Source of the DNA: Corynebacterium yudongzhengii
Lineage (GTDB): Bacteria; Actinomycetota; Actinomycetes; Mycobacteriales; Mycobacteriaceae
Direction of reading: 5' to 3'
Assembly (NCBI RefSeq): GCF_003065405.1
Contig: NZ_CP026947.1
Location: 620,001-684,000 of the forward strand
Length of the DNA: 64,000 bases
Both the position numbers and the translations under genes were made by a program. The notes beneath the pieces were generated by a model. It had not been told where the DNA came from. It worked only from the letters and a program-made list of their open reading frames with translations, and ran no database searches. Shown piece after piece: positions 4,218 to 12,424 of the stretch (position 1 is the stretch's first letter; each line of letters starts with the position of its first letter).

Positions 4218-4294
4218 CGCGGGGTGGAGCAGCTCGGTAGCTCGCTGGGCTCATAACCCAGAGGTCGTAGGTTCGAATCCTGCCCCCGCTACCA
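4218..4294 (+). tRNA. Initiator tRNA-fMet (CAT anticodon)
   Basis: The 77-nt cloverleaf folds with a 7-bp acceptor stem except for an unpaired first position (C1 against T72), the hallmark of initiator tRNA. The anticodon stem is CTGGG/CCCAG around a CAT anticodon, the T-loop is TTCGAAT, and CCA is encoded. The 3' 39 bases are duplicated at 12386-12424, so this gene is the insertion site of an integrative element. The left copy keeps the complete tRNA. Confidence 0.97.
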
Positions 4295-4580
4295 TCTTCT
4301 TCGAATCCCCCTCTTCGGAGGGGGATTCTTCATTTTCCACCGGGGTATCGACTCGACGGGGAAGAAGATCGGCGACTTCCAGGCCGAAGAAGTCAGCCGT
4401 GGCGAAGAGTTCCTCAACTGACCATTTCGAGTTTCCATAAACCTTATTGCTCACCGAAGCGCCGGTAACACCCAACACCTCACCTAGCTCCTTGCGGGTC
4501 TTTCGGTGCATGAACATCAGTTGGTCCACTTTTGCCCCAATTGCGGCGTCTGCGCTCATCGTTGTGCGTAAAACTTTCAT
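4251..4580 (-). CDS. XRE-family repressor whose 3' end runs through the attachment site
   Basis: 109 residues starting at the ATG at 4580. A lambda-repressor-type helix-turn-helix lies at about residues 27-60 (KTRKELGEVLGVTGASVS region), followed by a linker with many acidic residues. The last dozen residues (VAGAGFEPTTSGL) are the antisense of the tRNA 3' end, and the stop TGA lies in the tRNA anticodon loop, that is, in host DNA. In the circular form the frame would not stop there and would gain about 20 other residues. It is divergent from the excisionase-like gene, the usual layout of an immunity/excision switch. The start is chosen by the HTH position; the ribosome site is weak, and 4559 is an alternative. 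Confidence 0.75.
   Translation of the reverse strand: MKVLRTTMSADAAIGAKVDQLMFMHRKTRKELGEVLGVTGASVSNKVYGNSKWSVEELFATADFFGLEVADLLPRRVDTPVENEESPSEEGDSKKMVAGAGFEPTTSGL
4256..4294 (+). repeat. Attachment-site core, left copy (attL)
   Basis: 39 bp, identical to 12386-12424, running from the anticodon stem of the initiator tRNA to its CCA end. Direct repeats of a tRNA 3' end that flank a segment with an integrase gene at one end define the element boundaries. The core also encodes, on the minus strand, the last residues of the XRE repressor. Confidence 0.93.
4303..4328. terminator. Hairpin just inside the left end of the element
   Basis: A perfect 11-bp stem (4303-4313 and 4318-4328) with a TTCG loop, 8 bp after the tRNA CCA. 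It could end tRNA transcription in the integrated state. It also lies inside the repressor coding region on the other strand. Confidence 0.6.
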
Positions 4581-4630
4581 GCCTGAAGAATATCCAAAGA
4601 GCCGATATAACGCAATGAATGCAAGGAACG

Positions 4631-4668
4631 CTTGCAAATCGCGGTTTTGCAAACTATAGATAGTTGCA
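4631..4668. promoter_or_regulatory. Candidate operator between repressor and excisionase genes
   Basis: The 87-bp divergent gap contains two overlapping dyads. One is GCAAA-7 nt-TTTGC, and the other is the near-palindrome at 4648-4668 with arms TGCAA/TTGCA and ACTAT/ATAGT, ending at the excisionase start codon. The position fits binding by the XRE repressor. Function is inferred. Confidence 0.4.
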
Positions 4669-4874
4669 TGGATGTAAGAAAAACTAACGAACGACGAGGA
4701 AATTGGCTTTCTCCTCGGGAGTTCGGCGAGCAGCTGCCGGGCTCCCCCTCGGCTCAGACTATTCGAGACTGGTGCACTAAGGGGCTGATTCCAGGCGCTG
4801 TCCGGACACCTACAGGACGATGGCAAATTCCATCGTCGGCACGAGAGTCTCTAGTGGAGGGGATCGGGGCCTGA
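4668..4874 (+). CDS. MerR/AlpA-type excisionase-like DNA-binding protein
   Basis: 68 residues from the ATG at 4668. The protein has a short winged-helix pattern: WLSPREFGEQL, then TIRDWCTKGLIPGA, then GRWQIP. This is the HTH_17/excisionase signature in which the recognition helix is followed by an arginine-bearing wing. It is divergent from the XRE repressor and sits at the left end of the integrated element, so a role in excision or early transcription is likely. A longer start at 4632 is possible but would overlap the operator dyads. Confidence 0.65.
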   Translation: MDVRKTNERRGNWLSPREFGEQLPGSPSAQTIRDWCTKGLIPGAVRTPTGRWQIPSSARESLVEGIGA

Positions 4875-4916: not shown

Positions 4917-5021
4917 CTGAAAGCAACTCAACTGGCTGGTTGATGTTGACGTGGTCATCATCCCAAATGTGTCTCGTCTCGTCAACCCCTTTTCATTCGA
5001 GAAGCGTGGGGAGGCTTGGGG

Positions 5022-5745
5022 ATGAGCGTTAAGGCCGTTTCTTGGGTCCTTGACGACCTTCAAGGGTTGAAGCAAGGCCCATCGTTGGTGATGTTGGCTC
5101 TGGCGGATTTTGCAGATGAACGCAACTCCTGCTTTCCGGGCCAGGACAGGATTGCTGCGCGTGCGCGGTGTTCGAAGCGTTCGGTCATTTCGCATTTGAA
5201 GGAGTTGGAGGAGCTCGGCCTGATCTCAGTGGAGCGTCGAACCTATAGCAACGGCACGGGCTCCATCCGGCGGACGTCGAATCGCTATGTTTTGTATCTG
5301 GACAAGGCATATTCTGTCGAAGATGCAAAATCTGCACCTACGAGGAAACGTGCTGGTCACGCCGAACGTGCAGAATTTGCACCTACGAGTCTCGAAGGTG
5401 CAAAAAACCCTACCTCGAAGGTGCAACCCGTTGCACTTAATGAACCCCCAGTTATAGAACCACCAGCCCTCCCCCCAACCCCCCAAGTGGCCGAGGGGAC
5501 GGCTGCGCCGTCTGGGGCCGAGCCTGCCGGCTCGGCAGGGGAGGGGGGTTCTCTCCAGTGGACGAATCGGCTTGCCGCGATTTCGCTTGCGCTCATCGGG
5601 CAAGGCCGCCTGCCGGAGGGGGTGACCGACGACGAGTTGGTTCAGGTTCGCGCTCTCCAGGCGGCGACGTCGGATGAAAACGCTGATGGCGTGGGTTTTT
5701 CTGTGTCTGACGAGGATGTAATTACGCCGGTGGAGTCTTCTGGAG
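5022..5745 (+). pseudogene. Replication-initiator-like HTH protein, 5' part (split by IS256-family element)
   Basis: The ATG at 5022 has a GGGGAGG ribosome site. The N-terminal 100 residues form a winged helix-turn-helix (SLVMLALADFADERN, then QDRIAARARCSKRSVISHLKELEELGLI), as in HTH_36 proteins of plasmids and phage replication modules. A Pro/Ala-rich linker follows. The gene is cut after codon 241 by the insertion at 5746. Removing the IS and one 8-bp target copy joins this part in frame to 7221-7690, giving a 397-residue ancestor. The reading frame now runs 13 codons into the IS and stops at 5783. The truncated product may still bind DNA. Confidence 0.7.
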
Positions 5746-7212
5746 GGTCAAGTCCGCGGGAGTGGTGTATCTGTCCTTCCTGAATCATTGGAATCTAGTG
5801 GAGGGGGTGTCGGGGACCGGCGCGGGCTGGGTTGCTGTGCATTAGGCCGCTCCCTCGGTCGTGACGGTGTTGCTCGCGTCGACGGTGTTGGCGACGATAA
5901 GCTTTCGGGTTTGTTCCAGGCTTGCCAGTGACATGTAGCGCTTTTGTTGAATCCAATCATCATGCTGCTCGGCGAGCACTGCCCCGACGAGTCGTACTAC
6001 CGCGGCCCGATTGGGGAAGATGCCGACAACGTCAGTACGCCGGCGGATTTCCCGGTTGAGTCGTTCCGTCGGGTTATTCGACCACACCTTCGTCCACACA
6101 GCTTTCGGCGTGTTCGTGAACGCTAAGATCTCATCCAACGACTCTTCCACGTATCCGGCTACTTCTGGGAAACGCTGGTGACAGAACTCTACTACTTCCC
6201 GGGCTTGGTCCCACGTGGACCTGGCGTCGGCTTGCTGAAAAATGGAATGAAACATCCCCGACAACGTCGTCCACCCGCGCTTGGAAACTTTCGAGGAAAG
6301 GTTCTTGGCAAAATGCGTTCGGCACCGCTGCCAACCGGCAGTAGGAAGAACTTGGCCGACAGCGGCCTGGATACCCAGGTGGGCATCACTAGTGACGAGG
6401 TAGACTTCACCAAGTCCGCGGGCTTTTAAGTCCTGGAAGAACCCGGTCCAAGATTCCACGGACTCTGATGTTGCTACTTGCATGCCCAAAAGCTCCCGGT
6501 AGCCGTCGTTATTGACACCGGTGGCAATAAGCACGCTGGTCGTGACTACCCGTCCGCCTTCACGAACTTTCATGGTCACCGCATCACAGGACAGGTAGTA
6601 GTACGGGCCCTGATCAAGCGGGCGGGTTCGAAACTCCTCGACCATGATGTCGAGTTCTTTGGCCATGTCAGAGACCTGGGACTTCGACAGGTTGGTGATC
6701 CCCAGTGTTGCGACCAGGTCGTTCATCCTGCGGGTGGAGACACCCTTTAAGTAGCAGGTGGCGATCACTGTGGTCAGGGCCCGTTCGGTTCTGCTGCGTC
6801 GTTCCACAAGCCAATCAGGAAAGAAGCTCCCGGTGCGTAGTTTTGGGATAGCGACGTCAATGGAGCCGACACGGGTGTCGAGTTGGCGGTGACGGTAGCC
6901 ATTGCGGGTGTTGGTGCGCTGCGGAGAAACAGTGGCGTAGTCAGCACCGCAGACGCTGTCGGCCTGAGCCGAGAGGATTTGGTTGATGAAGTCCGAGAGC
7001 ATTTGGCGCATCAAATCTGGGGACGCTTGAGTCAGTAGCTCTTCGAGATACGCGGTCGGATCGATATGATGAGGGTCAGCGGCCATCGCAGGGTACTTCC
7101 TTTCGAGGATAGGTAGAAGTTGATTCGAAAGGTACCCGCGATGGTCGCCTTCATGCACACCGGCACAAGACTTACCGCGGGCTACAGATACACCACGCTA
7201 ACGGACGCAACC
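5746..7212. mobile_element. IS256-family insertion sequence (copy 1)
   Basis: 1467 bp with 29-bp imperfect terminal inverted repeats (22 of 29 match, including GTGGTGTATCTGT) and an 8-bp target duplication TTCTGGAG at 5738-5745 and 7213-7220. It contains one transposase gene on the minus strand. The intact target duplication and exact gene interruption suggest a fairly recent event. Confidence 0.93.
5842..7086 (-). CDS. IS256-family (mutator type) transposase
   Basis: 414 residues from the ATG at 7086, which has a GAAAGGAAG ribosome site; an in-frame start at 7158 lacks one. The mutator-type DDE fold is clear: the first catalytic Asp in SCDAVTMKV, the second in LVTSDAHLGI, and the Glu in NPTERLNREI. 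The length is normal for the family. It catalyses cut-and-paste or copy transposition of the surrounding element. It is related to, but clearly diverged from, the second copy at 32123-33376. Confidence 0.95.
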   Translation of the reverse strand: MAADPHHIDPTAYLEELLTQASPDLMRQMLSDFINQILSAQADSVCGADYATVSPQRTNTRNGYRHRQLDTRVGSIDVAIPKLRTGSFFPDWLVERRSRTERALTTVIATCYLKGVSTRRMNDLVATLGITNLSKSQVSDMAKELDIMVEEFRTRPLDQGPYYYLSCDAVTMKVREGGRVVTTSVLIATGVNNDGYRELLGMQVATSESVESWTGFFQDLKARGLGEVYLVTSDAHLGIQAAVGQVLPTAGWQRCRTHFAKNLSSKVSKRGWTTLSGMFHSIFQQADARSTWDQAREVVEFCHQRFPEVAGYVEESLDEILAFTNTPKAVWTKVWSNNPTERLNREIRRRTDVVGIFPNRAAVVRLVGAVLAEQHDDWIQQKRYMSLASLEQTRKLIVANTVDASNTVTTEGAA

Positions 7213-7690
7213 TTCTGGAGACGTCGCTGCTGCTGAGGCGGATGCCCAGGTGGAGCTGTCTCGGCAGGTGCTTCCCGCTCCCATGCAGGCCATGGGGCCG
7301 ACTCACCTGGCCAAGGTGGGCGGTGAGCTTGCGAAACGGCTGGAAGCTGGGTGGCTGCCAGAGCAAATTACCGCGATTCTGGCTTCTCGCCAGCTGCCCA
7401 GCCAAGTCCGCAACCTGGTGGCGCTGGTTCTTGCTCGACTGCGTGACGATGTGCCGGTTGACCAGCCCCCTCCGGCAGGTACCGACTGGTCAGCCGAGCC
7501 GTCAGATAGTCCGTCGTCGCAGCGGTGGTCGTACACCTTGCCGGATGGTCACGTGATCACCCGCAAGGACTTGGATTGCGGCTTGCTGGCCATCGACTTC
7601 AACCATGCTCGCCAGTCCGGTAACTGGTCAGGCGATGACCGTATGGATTTCGCTGTCGCCGTCGGTATCGAGCGCTACCTCTCGTCCTAA
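7213..7690 (+). pseudogene. Replication-initiator-like HTH protein, 3' part
   Basis: This is the C-terminal 155 codons of the gene interrupted at 5746. The frame is continuous with the 5' part once the IS and one target repeat are removed. It contains a helical segment (LAKRLEAGWLPEQITAILASRQLP) and a C-terminal stretch with no recognised motif. A GTG at 7250 could give an internal start, but no ribosome site supports separate expression. Confidence 0.65.
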
Positions 7691-7763
7691 CCCCAACACA
7701 CCCCGTGTGCGCGGCATTCTCGTCGGCGCATATCAACGACTCAACGAAAGGATTGGTGCAGTC

Positions 7764-8096
7764 ATGAGTGCAGGTCATGATCGCCACTCAGGTCCCTACT
7801 ACTTCCCACCCGAACCCCTCCCGCGACCTTTGATTGAGGAGGGACTGTGCTCCGTCGACGGCGTGTGGCCAGACGGTCTGTGGGACTTCTCCGTCGCCAA
7901 CGAATCGCTGCGTCAGCGTAAGGAACGCCGAGCCTTAGCGGTGACGGTGTGCAAGCAGTGCTCCGTGCAACAACTGTGCGCTGACTACGCGGCACGCAAT
8001 CGCCAGTGCGGCGTGTGGGGTGGCACGGTTTTTCACCCCTCTCGGACGGAGGGAGGTGAAGACAAGTGGGAAAACGCGGACGCTCCCGCCGCATAG
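7764..8096 (+). CDS. WhiB-like iron-sulfur transcription factor
   Basis: 110 residues. The four cluster cysteines are C29, C63, C66 and C72 in the C-x(n)-CxxC-x5-C pattern, followed by the GVWGG turn at residues 83-87 and a short basic tail region, all hallmarks of the Wbl family. Wbl proteins bind a [4Fe-4S] cluster and regulate transcription, often with the sigma factor. It is carried by the mobile element, as in several actinophages and plasmids. It could act on element or host genes. The start at 7764 has an AAAGG site upstream; longer in-frame starts begin outside the homologous region. Confidence 0.88.
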   Translation: MSAGHDRHSGPYYFPPEPLPRPLIEEGLCSVDGVWPDGLWDFSVANESLRQRKERRALAVTVCKQCSVQQLCADYAARNRQCGVWGGTVFHPSRTEGGEDKWENADAPAA

Positions 8097-8289: not shown

Positions 8290-8553
8290 ATGCACTCATA
8301 CAAGAGGGTCCGAGCCGCCATGGCGGTCGCCGTCGCGTCATCGCTGGCGCTGCCAGGCTTCGCGGTCGCTGATGAAAAACCAGCCGAGGAAGCGAGCGCT
8401 GCGGTCTGTGGGCTGTTCGCCGTCGATGCGTTTGCGGAAGACGAGGATGTCGGTGCCGACATCTGTTCCAGCGACATCGCGGAAGGCTCCGGCCGGCAGA
8501 CGTGTAGCAGTGACGAGATCGGCGCGGGCGATCATGTCTTGGCGCGCATCTGA
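8290..8553 (+). pseudogene. 5' fragment of a secreted-protein gene
   Basis: The ATG at 8290 is preceded by a good AAGGAG ribosome site. It begins a classical signal peptide (basic MHSYKRVR, hydrophobic core, then a cleavage site near AVA-DE). After about 32 codons the frame enters the antisense of the methylase-like gene and ends at 8553 with composition unlike a protein. The true gene was therefore joined to foreign DNA near 8385 and lost its body. A short chimeric secreted peptide could still be made. Confidence 0.6.
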
Positions 8554-9891
8554 ACTGAGTGAATCCGAGGTGAAAGAGCTGGTAACGACGGCGACGTAGC
8601 CACCAGGTTGAACGAGGTTGAGGGATTTGACGATGAAGTGATTGTGGATGGAGTGGGATTCAGGATTGTGTTGGGGGTCGTGGAGGCGGAAGTCGCCGAA
8701 GGGCACGTTACCTATGGCGGCGACGAAACTTTCATCTATCGGTTGAAACCGCTCGAAACCGCTGTTGACAATGTGGGCATCGGGGTAGAGCTGTCGGGAA
8801 ATGCTGGCTGCGATGGGGTCGATTTCGACACCGACGACGTCGGCTGTGTGTGGCGCGTGGGCGAGGAAGTTGCCCGTGCCGGACCCGGGTTCTAGGACTG
8901 GGCCGTCGGTATATCCAGCGGTGGTTAGCGCACTCCACAGCGGGCGGATGATCTCGTCACTTGTGAAAAAAGCGGTTAGGGTGGCTGCTTCCATGCGGCG
9001 GTATTCGTCTGGGGTCGTTACCGCTGCCAGTCGCTCACGGAGGTCAGTGTAGGAGGTGTCCGCGCGGTTGAATATGGCCGACGCTGCGCCCCAGCTGGTG
9101 TAACCGGCCAGAACCTGCTGTTCGTCGGCGGTTGCCCAGCGCTGGTCAGTTTCGAGCTGGCGGAGTAGCTCGATTGCAGCGATATTTGCTTCAGCGCGAC
9201 CTCTGACTCCTTGCGGGATGGGTAGACGGTTCTGAGGGTCAAAAGTAACCGGATCAGGGTGAGGAGTGGATTCGGTCGAGGTATCAAGGTCGGCAGTATC
9301 CTCTGTCAGAGGATCGATCTCACCTGGCGATAGAGTGATCGCACCTCTTTCGGCTTCATACCGGTGTCGGGCTTCTTCTTGGGTCAGGCCTAGCTGCTTG
9401 ATCAGCAGGGTTTGGTAGTCCTGGGCGAGAGAGTCTACGACTGCTTGGACGGTGCCGGTGGGGTCGAGTTCGAGGTGGGCCAGGTGGTATTGCTCTGGTC
9501 CTGTTCCCCAGGGGACAATACTGAGGGGCTGGCCTTCGCGTGGAGCAATGGGTTCGAGCCCCCGGGGTTGGGTTCGTACGAGGCGACGGCGCGAGAGTTC
9601 TGCAAGGTAGGCATTGTGAATGAGGTGACTGCGATCGCTTCCCTCCAGCCCAGCTTCCTCGAAGTCTCTGACGGCCTGGAAATAGGCGTCAGCGAGTTCT
9701 TCGTTGCCGAGGGTTTTAGCATGATCGTTGAGTCTGTCTTTGCCTTCGTCCGAGATGAAGATGCCCGCTCCTCCGCCAATGTCGGTGAGAGTGAGGGCTA
9801 GGCGCTTTTCGGGCTGAGATTCTGCGGTGCCCTGCAGGATGTCGAACAGGGAAAGTTGGTTCTCGTTCGTGCGGGGTTGACGCCTCGCCAT
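8338..9891 (-). pseudogene. Plasmid-type DNA methylase/helicase protein, truncated after the methylase domain
   Basis: The ATG at 9891 has an AGGAG ribosome site. About 500 residues remain. The C-terminal half is an adenine-methylase domain with motif I (VLEPGSGTGNFL, near residue 340) and motif IV in the NVPFG variant typical of the very large methylase-helicase proteins of plasmids and integrative elements. Those proteins normally continue with a helicase domain. Here the homologous part ends near 8385, and the last 14 codons are the antisense of the signal-peptide fragment. The truncation makes anti-restriction or methylation activity doubtful. Confidence 0.7.
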
Positions 9892-10036: not shown

Positions 10037-10081
10037 TACGGCTTGCCGGGAAACTGGTTTTACGGCAATGCGGTTTGCCGG
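10037..10081. repeat. Partition/iteron-like repeats, cluster 1
   Basis: It contains TACGGCTTGCCGG at 10037-10049 and the 18-bp dyad GGCAATGCGGTTTGCCGG at 10064-10081. The second differs at only two positions from a repeat at 12290-12307. The site lies between the terminator and the stop of the minus-strand gene at 10086. Confidence 0.5.
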
Positions 10082-10085
10082 TTAG

Positions 10086-10479: not shown

Positions 10480-10536
10480 GTAATACGCAAAGCCGGGTTG
10501 CTGGCTTTACGGGTTGCCGGGTTTACGGTTTTACGG
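10480..10536. repeat. Partition/iteron-like repeats, cluster 2
   Basis: The stretch between the RHH stop and the next gene has closely spaced variants of the same word: GTAATACGCAAAGCCGG, GGCTTTACGGGTTGCCGG and TTTACGGTTTTACGGC. The right end overlaps the 3' end of the RHH gene. Confidence 0.45.
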
Positions 10537-10740
10537 CCGCTTGGTTGTGTAGTCTTCGATGAACTCGTTGATGACTTCAGTCATGGTTCGCCCTTTGGCG
10601 ATCGTAGCCAGCTGGAACTTTCGGTGGAGGTCGGCGTCGACGAGAATGGTGAGCTTCTTCGTATTAGCGACCGGGGTTTGCAAGACTTCCTTTGCGCTGG
10701 TGGGGCGTGGGCGGTTGTGACGTCGCATGGAGTTAGTCAT
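10531..10740 (-). CDS. Ribbon-helix-helix (CopG/ParG-like) partition partner
   Basis: 69 residues. A basic flexible N-terminus is followed by TKKLTILVDADLHRKFQLATIAKGRTMTEVI..., split here as a beta strand (KLTILVD), helix A and helix B, the fold of CopG/Arc-type dimers. The start overlaps the parA stop by 8 bp, showing translational coupling. In class Ib partition systems such a protein binds the centromere and stimulates ParA, and often represses the operon. This role is inferred from position and fold. Confidence 0.75.
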   Translation of the reverse strand: MTNSMRRHNRPRPTSAKEVLQTPVANTKKLTILVDADLHRKFQLATIAKGRTMTEVINEFIEDYTTKRP

Positions 10741-11320
10741 GGCGGGCTTCCTTGATCTGTTGAGCGATTGATTCGTAGCCGTGAAGTTGTCCGTGTGGTG
10801 AGTGGCCGTACCAGTGGCGAATTTCTTCTCGGCGGGGGATTGCTCCTCGGAAGACGCGCACGCCTTCTTCGGCGAGAGCATCGGAGAGTGCGGTTGTCGA
10901 TTTGGCTTGGATGAGGACACTTGTGAGCAGCACGATGGCTTTGTCTTTGCCAGCGATGTCTACTGTGTCCCACATCCTTTCGGTCTCTATCCCGGAGGGT
11001 TGGACTGGGACGACGACCAGGTCGGCGACGCCGATAGCGGCGTCAATGAGTCTGGGGTCACCGGGTGGGCAGTCCAGGATGGTGTAGTCCGTGTTCTCTT
11101 TGATGTTCTTGGTGGTTCTGACGTTGCCGAGTGTGACTGGGAAGGGGAGCGGTTGCCCTGCTTTTTCCGCCATCTGGGCCCATTCTGTTGCGCTGCCTTG
11201 GGGGTCGAGGTCGACGACGGTGACGGAGTTTCCGGCACGATAGAACGCGGTGGCGAGCAATACCGCGCTAGTCGTTTTGCCGGTCCCTCCTTTGAGGTTG
11301 GATATTGCGATGATCGTCAT
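10733..11320 (-). CDS. ParA-family partition ATPase
   Basis: 195 residues, the short form without an N-terminal HTH. The deviant Walker A motif is KGGTGKTT at residues 10-17, followed by VVDLDPQGS and the Walker B region TILDCPPGDP. An AAAGGA ribosome site precedes the ATG. Together with the overlapping ribbon-helix-helix gene it forms a typical small plasmid partition module. Its presence implies that the element replicates or once replicated outside the chromosome. Confidence 0.92.
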   Translation of the reverse strand: MTIIAISNLKGGTGKTTSAVLLATAFYRAGNSVTVVDLDPQGSATEWAQMAEKAGQPLPFPVTLGNVRTTKNIKENTDYTILDCPPGDPRLIDAAIGVADLVVVPVQPSGIETERMWDTVDIAGKDKAIVLLTSVLIQAKSTTALSDALAEEGVRVFRGAIPRREEIRHWYGHSPHGQLHGYESIAQQIKEARHD

Positions 11321-11383: not shown

Positions 11384-12241
11384 TTAGAGTTTGGTGGTTG
11401 TCATCAGGTCTTTGAGGTCGAGTGAGGTTTGGGTGTAGCGCTGTGTGGTTGTGATTGACTTGTGGCCTAGTGCGTGTTGAACGGCGACAAGATCTTTAGT
11501 GCCGGCGTTGTATGCAACGGTGGCGAATCTGTGGCGAAGGGTGTGCAGCGTCCACGGCTCTGGGAGAACCTTTGTGGCTAGGGTTCCAACCCAGCGTGGC
11601 GAAAGGTGCCCGTTGATGTTGCCGGGGAAGACCCATCCATTCGGTCCTTGCTGGCGCCGTATCTGGGCCGTTAAGGCGGGAGAGACCGGCAGCACCCGGA
11701 TTTGCCCGCCCTTGCCCTCAACAGTGAGAGTTGTCCAACCGTCGCCTGTGTCGGTGAGATTGGTGGTGTTGAGGGTGGCGATTTCACCAGCGCGCAGACC
11801 AAGTTCGGCGGCGAGCTCCAGGATGAGGCGAGTTCGTGGGTGAGCTTTCGCGATCGCTTCTGAGATGGCGGAGTCGGGTGCCGGGCGCGGTGGGGGTATC
11901 GGCCTGTGAATTGAGGGCAGCCATTGCGATGGGTCTTCTTCCGGATTCTCGCGATAGAGCCACCTAAAGAAGGTTCGCAGTGACGAATAGTAGGCATGTC
12001 GCGTTTCGGGAGCCCATTGAGCTGATCCGCACCACACTTCCAAGTCTTCACTGGTCACCTCACTTGGGGATGCTGTGCCGAGTGCTCGTGCGGCGGTTGC
12101 CAGGTGTGTGAGCCTCGTGGTGATCGTGCGGTGGGATCTATTGAGAGCTGCGAGATGGAGTTCGAATCTTCGCAGGGCCCCGCCATCCGGGAGGGGTTGG
12201 TAAGGCATTGGGTCGATCTGAGTGGAGCATGATCGAGTCAT
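11384..12241 (-). CDS. int: Tyrosine recombinase (integrase)
   Basis: 285 residues from the ATG at 12241, which has a GGAAAG site; 12208 is an alternative. The N-terminal SAM-like core-binding domain covers roughly residues 10-95. The catalytic domain shows the family residues: Arg in GLRAGEI, HxxR in HTLRHR, His in ALGHKS and the nucleophile Tyr in TQRYTQ. It lies next to attR, as expected for the enzyme that integrates into the tRNA-fMet gene. In the circular form it would follow the repressor gene in the same orientation. Confidence 0.95.
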   Translation of the reverse strand: MTRSCSTQIDPMPYQPLPDGGALRRFELHLAALNRSHRTITTRLTHLATAARALGTASPSEVTSEDLEVWCGSAQWAPETRHAYYSSLRTFFRWLYRENPEEDPSQWLPSIHRPIPPPRPAPDSAISEAIAKAHPRTRLILELAAELGLRAGEIATLNTTNLTDTGDGWTTLTVEGKGGQIRVLPVSPALTAQIRRQQGPNGWVFPGNINGHLSPRWVGTLATKVLPEPWTLHTLRHRFATVAYNAGTKDLVAVQHALGHKSITTTQRYTQTSLDLKDLMTTTKL

Positions 12242-12281
12242 ACCCAACTTTCCATGCGGGGAACCGTATGCATGGCAACCC

Positions 12282-12326
12282 GGCAATACGGCAATACGGT
12301 TAGCCGGAGAGCCAGCAATACGGTTA
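12282..12326. repeat. Partition/iteron-like repeats, cluster 3 near attR
   Basis: Three copies of GCAATACGG in 45 bp: GGCAATACGG at 12282, GGCAATACGGTTAGCCGG at 12290-12307 and GCAATACGGTTA at 12315. They lie between the integrase start and attR. They may be integrase arm sites, partition sites or origin iterons. Confidence 0.5.
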
Positions 12327-12385
12327 AAGTGGTAAAAAAAAATTTCGGCGGAGCTTCCAACCCATGAGGGTTATGGAGGCTAATG

Positions 12386-12424
12386 ACCCAGAGGTCGTAG
12401 GTTCGAATCCTGCCCCCGCTACCA
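12386..12424 (+). repeat. Attachment-site core, right copy (attR)
   Basis: 39 bp identical to the 3' part of the tRNA-fMet gene at 4256-4294. The sequence upstream of it does not complete a tRNA, so only the left copy is functional. Confidence 0.93.

Follow-up and report, generated by a model that had tools for sequence, protein, structure and literature searches.

Integration-dependent immunity operates in phage Brujita as it does in BPs, and systems of this class are not known to have a recombination directionality factor or arm sites. The accessible parts of the published accounts describe how, in such phages, integration exchanges the tail of the repressor for a stop codon of the host and parts the integrase gene from the repressor promoter (PMC4557955, PMC9262239, PMC8092301, PMC9934374, PMC4929511), the short form of the repressor being the active one (PMC4557955). 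In what these accounts report of the BPs-type systems (PMC4557955, PMC9262239), attP lies inside the repressor gene, the gene of a tyrosine integrase follows downstream on the same strand, attB is a tRNA gene, the stop is supplied at attL, and the repressor has a short prophage form and a longer form on the circle. The same arrangement, with an integrase of the same family, is predicted here for a locus of Corynebacterium yudongzhengii contained in the window, by which we mean the whole 64,000-nucleotide stretch of DNA that was analysed.

The repressor gene and the attachment core in the window

Two 39-bp cores, both copies of the 3' end of tRNA-Met, enclose an element of 8.1 kb (Table 1). The first-pass annotation had held that the frame of the XRE repressor crosses the entire core and stops in the tRNA, and this was confirmed: the integrated product ends ...VAGAGFEPTTSGL, with its TGA at 4253-4251. 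When position 12385 was joined to the core by script, as on the predicted circle, the same frame continued to a stop at 12326-12324 and yielded TSG followed by SLASITLMGWKLRRNFFLPL, which reproduces both the tail and the 128 instead of 109 residues given in that annotation. The integrase gene also lies where it had been placed, downstream of the repressor and on the same strand of the circle, starting 40 nt past the first base of the circle-form stop. A run of nine A at 12334-12342 (nine T on the coding strand) is found within the circle-only tail, and slippage there would alter the tail. A terminator between attP and the integrase gene was considered from a T-run and dropped, since for the window's minus strand none was reported in that interval. 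The terminator of tRNA-Met itself may be provided by the DNA of the element, via the hairpin located in the linker codons of the repressor.

Table 1. Coordinates of the features of the element, in positions of the window
Feature	Position	Strand	Remarks
Host tRNA-Met(CAT), rebuilt at attL	4218..4294	+	ARAGORN
XRE/HTH repressor, integrated form, 109 aa	4251..4580	-	Stop TGA in tRNA
attL common core, 39 bp	4256..4294	.	Exact match to 12386-12424
Terminator-like hairpin 3' of tRNA, inside repressor coding sequence (linker codons)	4303..4328	+	
Control region between divergent genes	4581..4667	.	Operator expected here (predicted)
Divergent small HTH gene, Cro/Xis-like	4632..4874	+	ATG at 4668
HTH_36 replication-initiator-like gene, IS-interrupted	5016..5783	+	Pfam 5.3e-14; PHROG 1032
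Mutator/IS256-type insertion	5745..7211, ends approximate	-	PF00872, terminal repeats
WhiB-like gene	7605..8096	+	
DarB-like antirestriction fragment	8338..9891	-	Match of about 305 residues to a family of 4647 positions
Ribbon-helix-helix (RHH) ParG-like gene	10531..10920	-	Weak match, under cut-off
ParA-like partition ATPase	10733..11320	-	
Tyrosine integrase	11384..12286	-	TTG start 12286; ATG alternative 12241
Short CGGCAATACGG repeats between core and integrase gene	12272..12334	.	
Circle-only repressor tail	12324..12385	-	Script join; apparent protein-level constraint against G520
attR common core, 39 bp	12386..12424	.	Exact match to 4256-4294

The repressor matches a PHROG family of transcriptional repressors (1.1e-8) and Pfam BetR, the latter at 6.7e-4 and under the family cut-off. 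Its AlphaFold model contains four helices in residues 10-65, predicted with high confidence, and a C-terminal part of low confidence, with block-mean pLDDT values of 46-52 from residue 81. The Foldseek matches of this model are XRE DNA-binding domains, including ClgR and P22 c2, one alone having E <0.001.

Regarding the rest of the element, the product of the small divergent HTH gene could be either Xis or Cro by family match. An operator search confined to the control regions of relatives gave no common palindrome. The insertion that splits the HTH_36 gene is flanked by an 8-bp target duplication, with which it covers 5737-7219, and a possible remainder of that gene is found beyond it, at about 7250-7690. 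Short repeats related to those beside the core occur near the ParA and RHH genes, at 10037-10084 and 10484-10537, and several relatives have other short repeats at the same place beside the core; a role as centromere or as integrase arm sites is conceivable for these repeats, and we raise it as a question only.

Related elements at tRNA-Met in the genus

An alignment search of 242 genomes of the genus with the repressor gave matches in 203 of them. Among the matches listed, the weaker ones mostly cover the antisense-tRNA tail alone, with a few restricted to the HTH part. Such a tail on its own belongs to the common background: many antisense tRNA frames are open and encode the familiar GAGFEPTTSGL tail, two of the three antisense frames of this tRNA-Met core being open. 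An open repressor homologue that reaches the core is present in 22 of the 242 genomes (those of G387 and G473 lack a clear start). Each of the 22 runs into the tRNA-Met core in frame, a consequence of LLP-motif-to-core distances of 108, 111, 114 or 117 nt, and all stop one codon past the TSG; pairwise identity among eight aligned homologues is 48-76%. Relatives ending before the core, a point raised by the first-pass annotation, are represented by G477, whose repressor is shifted, as against the 22 that reach it, and the copies of G503 and G496 contain internal stops. G021 (L024/L043) was rejected as a relative, its frame, judged by eye, not being an HTH repressor; G318, G383, G367 and G440, with integrase or core copies and no homologous repressor at the sites examined, were excluded from the counts. 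In genome and viral contig collections, single-protein searches found no match and alignment searches four weak loci each.

The core was then sought in 30 genomes with their flanks, which defined 12 elements, that of the window included, with attL, attR and an integrase of one clade (the G328 element is a near copy of that of G371). Three of 15 core pairs were dropped: G578, whose second core lies 0.87 kb away with 3 mismatches and no integrase seen, and G464 and G586, with repressor fragments and no integrase seen. For ten of the 22 genomes with the repressor the right end could not be used: G578, and nine in which no second core with 3 or fewer mismatches was found. Some of these ten are draft assemblies. 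The integrase clade was detected in 13 of the 242 genomes at E <1e-100, 12 with the repressor and G520 with none beside its tRNA; the right end of G520 was used in the pair tests alone. The integrase frame of G002 is shortened and followed by transposase-like frames, as judged by eye.

In all 12 elements the integrated repressor stops one codon past the common TSG, the predicted attP core lies within the repressor reading frame, and the next large gene in the same orientation is that of the integrase, which starts about 100-465 nt beyond the core. The expectation that relatives would keep the long frame across attP was borne out, as every predicted circle continues past the TSG, for 3-272 codons and for at least 20 codons in 11 of the 12: 20 in the window, only 3 in G475, 29 in G469, 30 in G371, 103 in G328, 104 in G002, 107 in G415, 132 in both G054 and G525, 133 in G544, 228 in G583 and 272 in G482. 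The common stretch is 3-5 bases longer in G054, G525, G544, G002, G482 and G583, so that there the first tail codon is also found at attL. The tails are often hydrophobic. Those of the window, G415 and G054 elements have L-[ER]-R-x-F-F at one common position, with looser versions in others; the far ends of the long tails may be accidental, because these overlap the integrase gene in another frame. None of the 12 circle tails has an AA end, and the circle form thus lacks the ssrA-like tag that is usual, if not universal, in integration-dependent immunity. An AA end on the integrase, a degradation signal usual in such systems, is likewise absent in the window, where the protein ends TTTKL, and in 10 relatives. 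The long open frames at attR had suggested a repressor-integrase fusion; in the elements checked, those whose integrase was the largest ORF, the integrase is in another frame and the fusion was rejected. G415 and G367 (L133, L047/L068) each have three or more successive core copies, which suggests stacked elements at one tRNA-Met.

A MOBF relaxase is encoded between the att sites of nine of the 12 elements (not in G371, G475 and the window) and a coupling protein in eight, G002 having the relaxase without it; integrase, att sites, relaxase and coupling protein occur together in eight. The G054 element carries a TrwC relaxase, a TraG coupling protein, an M23/SLT protein, a DNA methylase and a Fic gene. 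Terminase PF03354, the one terminase family searched, is absent from all 13 genomes, and a PHROG scan of nine window proteins found no virion family. By gene content the elements look like integrative and conjugative elements (ICEs). The window copy, which at 8.1 kb is shorter than the other 11 (28-65 kb) and lies in a genome where neither relaxase nor coupling protein was found, looks like a reduced, IS-interrupted ICE derivative. Its earlier description as a small, plasmid-like element falls short, as most of its relatives carry conjugation genes. Since the relatives have relaxase and coupling protein and the window copy is reduced, immunity of the phage type is probably not the main job of the window element.

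Coding constraint beyond the core

The DNA past the core was compared between pairs of right ends over the first 51 nt (17 codons) after the TSG, by site permutation of BLOSUM scores with 10,000 permutations. An earlier run with lengths picked by eye was repeated at this fixed length, and a column-shuffle statistic, significant in all three frames, was dropped in favour of site permutation. In the three pairs of the fixed test (G054/G525, G544/G002 and window/G520), substitutions by codon position numbered 18/12/34 (p = 0.0009), and the permutation p values in the repressor frame were 0/10,000, 0.0145 and 0.0104, while neither of the other frames gave a value below 0.287. A stretch of the integrase gene, taken as positive control, was positive; two spacer stretches gave 0.205 and 0.315 in the repressor frame, and one spacer gave 0.038 in another frame. 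The window/G520 pair was picked after its likeness had been noticed, G520 having no repressor at its tRNA, and the codon-position test without it gives p = 0.004.

Running every one of the 78 pairs among the 13 right ends, without selection, weakens the coding claim: at p<0.05 there were 8 pairs in the repressor frame and 3 and 7 in the two other frames, and at p<0.02 there were 6 versus 2 and 2. Six pairs reach an identity of 50% or more. Three of these are significant in the repressor frame, and no other frame is significant in any of the six; the remaining G371/G328 (2 differences in 51 nt), G002/G054 and G000/G415 have no significant constraint. In three lineages, therefore, the circle-only DNA seems to have evolved under protein-level constraint in the repressor frame, a moderate signal that does not extend everywhere. 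This constraint suggests that the long form of the repressor is made; a separate small ORF at attR could also account for it, with lower probability. Taken together, the 22 in-frame homologues and the partial coding evidence past the core exceed the background of open antisense frames.

A candidate switch, compared with phages, a plasmid and ICEs

Five phage records match the repressor, from Dogfish, Bunker, IdentityCrisis (two records) and WST1, all annotated as immunity repressors. Dogfish gp33 and Bunker gp38 (Gordonia) and IdentityCrisis gp36 (Mycobacterium) are homologous in the HTH part, with 32-42% identity, and resemble the window in having an antisense-tRNA core in the gene, the integrase gene downstream and a divergent HTH gene. 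They differ from it in residing on phage genomes, in using another tRNA core and in their ends, the antisense-tRNA-core stretch (APTRARTWDLRI) being followed by tails that terminate in AAA, AAA and EAA; in Bunker there is also an extra small gene in between. The integrase matches 165 phage records, the best ranked being GMA5 (40.8% over 83%) and the next-ranked group (46.8% over 71%) including Angel, which we take to be a close relative of BPs; pairwise identity to Angel gp32 is 46.4%. Angel gp33 contains the antisense-tRNA stretch but ends DKAS, not AA. The likeness to BPs and Brujita proposed in the first-pass annotation is upheld by these homologues. The same design was found in another genus, at tRNA-Lys in G358, with an RRAKNAA end; because endolysin genes lie near its right end, that element has the appearance of a prophage. 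In Corynebacterium, the circular phage phiCFREI45254 encodes, before its integrase, an HTH product with an antisense-tRNA-like stretch and an RAA end. This phage and phiDSM104638, small circular phages filed as plasmids (L175 and L174), both have an HTH frame with an antisense-tRNA-like end before the integrase gene.

The C. mustelae plasmid pCmus45274 (NZ_CP011543.1) shares with the window element a homologous repressor, a divergent small HTH gene and the HTH_36 block. It is, by contrast, a free plasmid, and its 103-aa repressor stops on its own without such a tail, which suggests that repression does not require the tail. No copy of the tRNA-Met core was found on G487 contig 2, which matches this plasmid where the hit lies, a match that points to Corynebacterium as the genus. 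CRISPR-like repeats lie directly behind the plasmid repressor gene (L176, about 5300-5420).

We favour an integration-dependent switch, with a probability of roughly 0.6, in which losing the tail would make the repressor active or stable, the long form on the circle being weak or unstable. The gene of the master repressor would contain the attachment core of the element, and on the excised circle its frame would cross the core and continue into a tail specific to the element, with repressor and integrase genes in one direction. Integration at tRNA-Met would replace this tail by the host stop one codon past the TSG and separate the integrase gene from the repressor promoter. The resulting tail-less protein would be active or stable, integration itself thereby silencing the divergent genes, that is, HTH_36 and, in the fuller relatives, the transfer genes. 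The weak or unstable long form on the circle would permit replication, transfer and reintegration. Both frames and the order repressor-attP-int are read directly from the 12 elements, as is the constraint past the core in some pairs; from there we infer co-transcription, the form that represses, its turnover and its target promoters. The three-codon tail of G475, the absence of AA ends from all 12 elements and the three of six comparable pairs without constraint count against such a switch.

Several other readings have to be weighed. The circle promoter of the repressor might simply drive the integrase gene, which integration would cut off, the change of C-terminus being a by-product; the integrase gene following about 100-465 nt past the core in 12 of 12, the widely varying tail lengths and endings with no common tag, and the half of comparable pairs that lack constraint would all fit. 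We nevertheless think it rather unlikely in view of the protein-level constraint in three pairs, the linker in frame in 22 of 22 and the AA ends beyond the core of related phage repressors. That the repressor merely has no stop before the tRNA and is read through by accident is improbable: although the antisense-tRNA tail is widespread in the genus and two of three antisense frames of the core are open, 22 of 22 homologues are in frame at 48-76% identity among eight aligned, some pairs are constrained past the core, and the same design recurs with an AA end at tRNA-Lys in G358 and in sequenced phages. It is also very unlikely that polarity is reversed, such that the long circle form actively regulates, say, copy number and is inactivated by integration. 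Conservation of part of the tail as protein in three pairs would agree with this, whereas the homologous repressor of the free plasmid has no such tail, and the short form is the active one in the phage systems as far as the available account describes them (PMC4557955).

Compatible with the favoured switch is a further reading, to which we give not quite an even chance, that it works in the relatives and is dead in this genome. The window copy may be a relic, considering its small size, the lack of relaxase and coupling protein in its genome, the IS in the HTH_36 gene and the truncated DarB-like gene; on the other hand, the repressor, both cores and the integrase are open.

For the family as a whole, we tentatively propose, as a claim somewhat less probable than its negation, that Corynebacterium ICEs use integration at tRNA-Met as a protein-editing switch, by which a non-ssrA tail would give way to a host stop, converting an unstable or inactive regulator to an active silencer of replication and conjugation while the integrase is turned off. 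If true, integration-dependent control would cover conjugative transfer as well as phage immunity, the tail signal being of a new type, and the transfer and replication programme of an ICE would be tied in a simple way to its chromosomal state without a separate sensor. The 12 related candidate switches and the tail-less plasmid homologue form a natural set for testing the tail.

The Corynebacterium elements differ from BPs in their conjugation genes, in having no AA end on repressor or integrase, in a ParA gene after the integrase gene (window, G371, G328 and G054) and in the repeats adjoining the core. The M. abscessus prophages MabC, MabH, MabN and MabO, unlike the putative ICEs described here, are phages; in the accessible part of their description they have the integration-dependent layout and repressors without ssrA-like tags (PMC8092301), so that the absence of AA is compatible with the mechanism. 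Actinobacterial T4SS-type ICEs share with these elements the MOBF/TrwC relaxase and the coupling protein that serve as ICE markers, and the portion of that survey available to us describes no attP-in-repressor arrangement (PMC3218068). No report of an integration-dependent switch in ICEs or in Corynebacterium was found in the literature searched, which included few subscription papers. The arrangement is known for phages and, as far as we found, had been described only for them; what is new here is its layout on relatives that carry conjugation genes.
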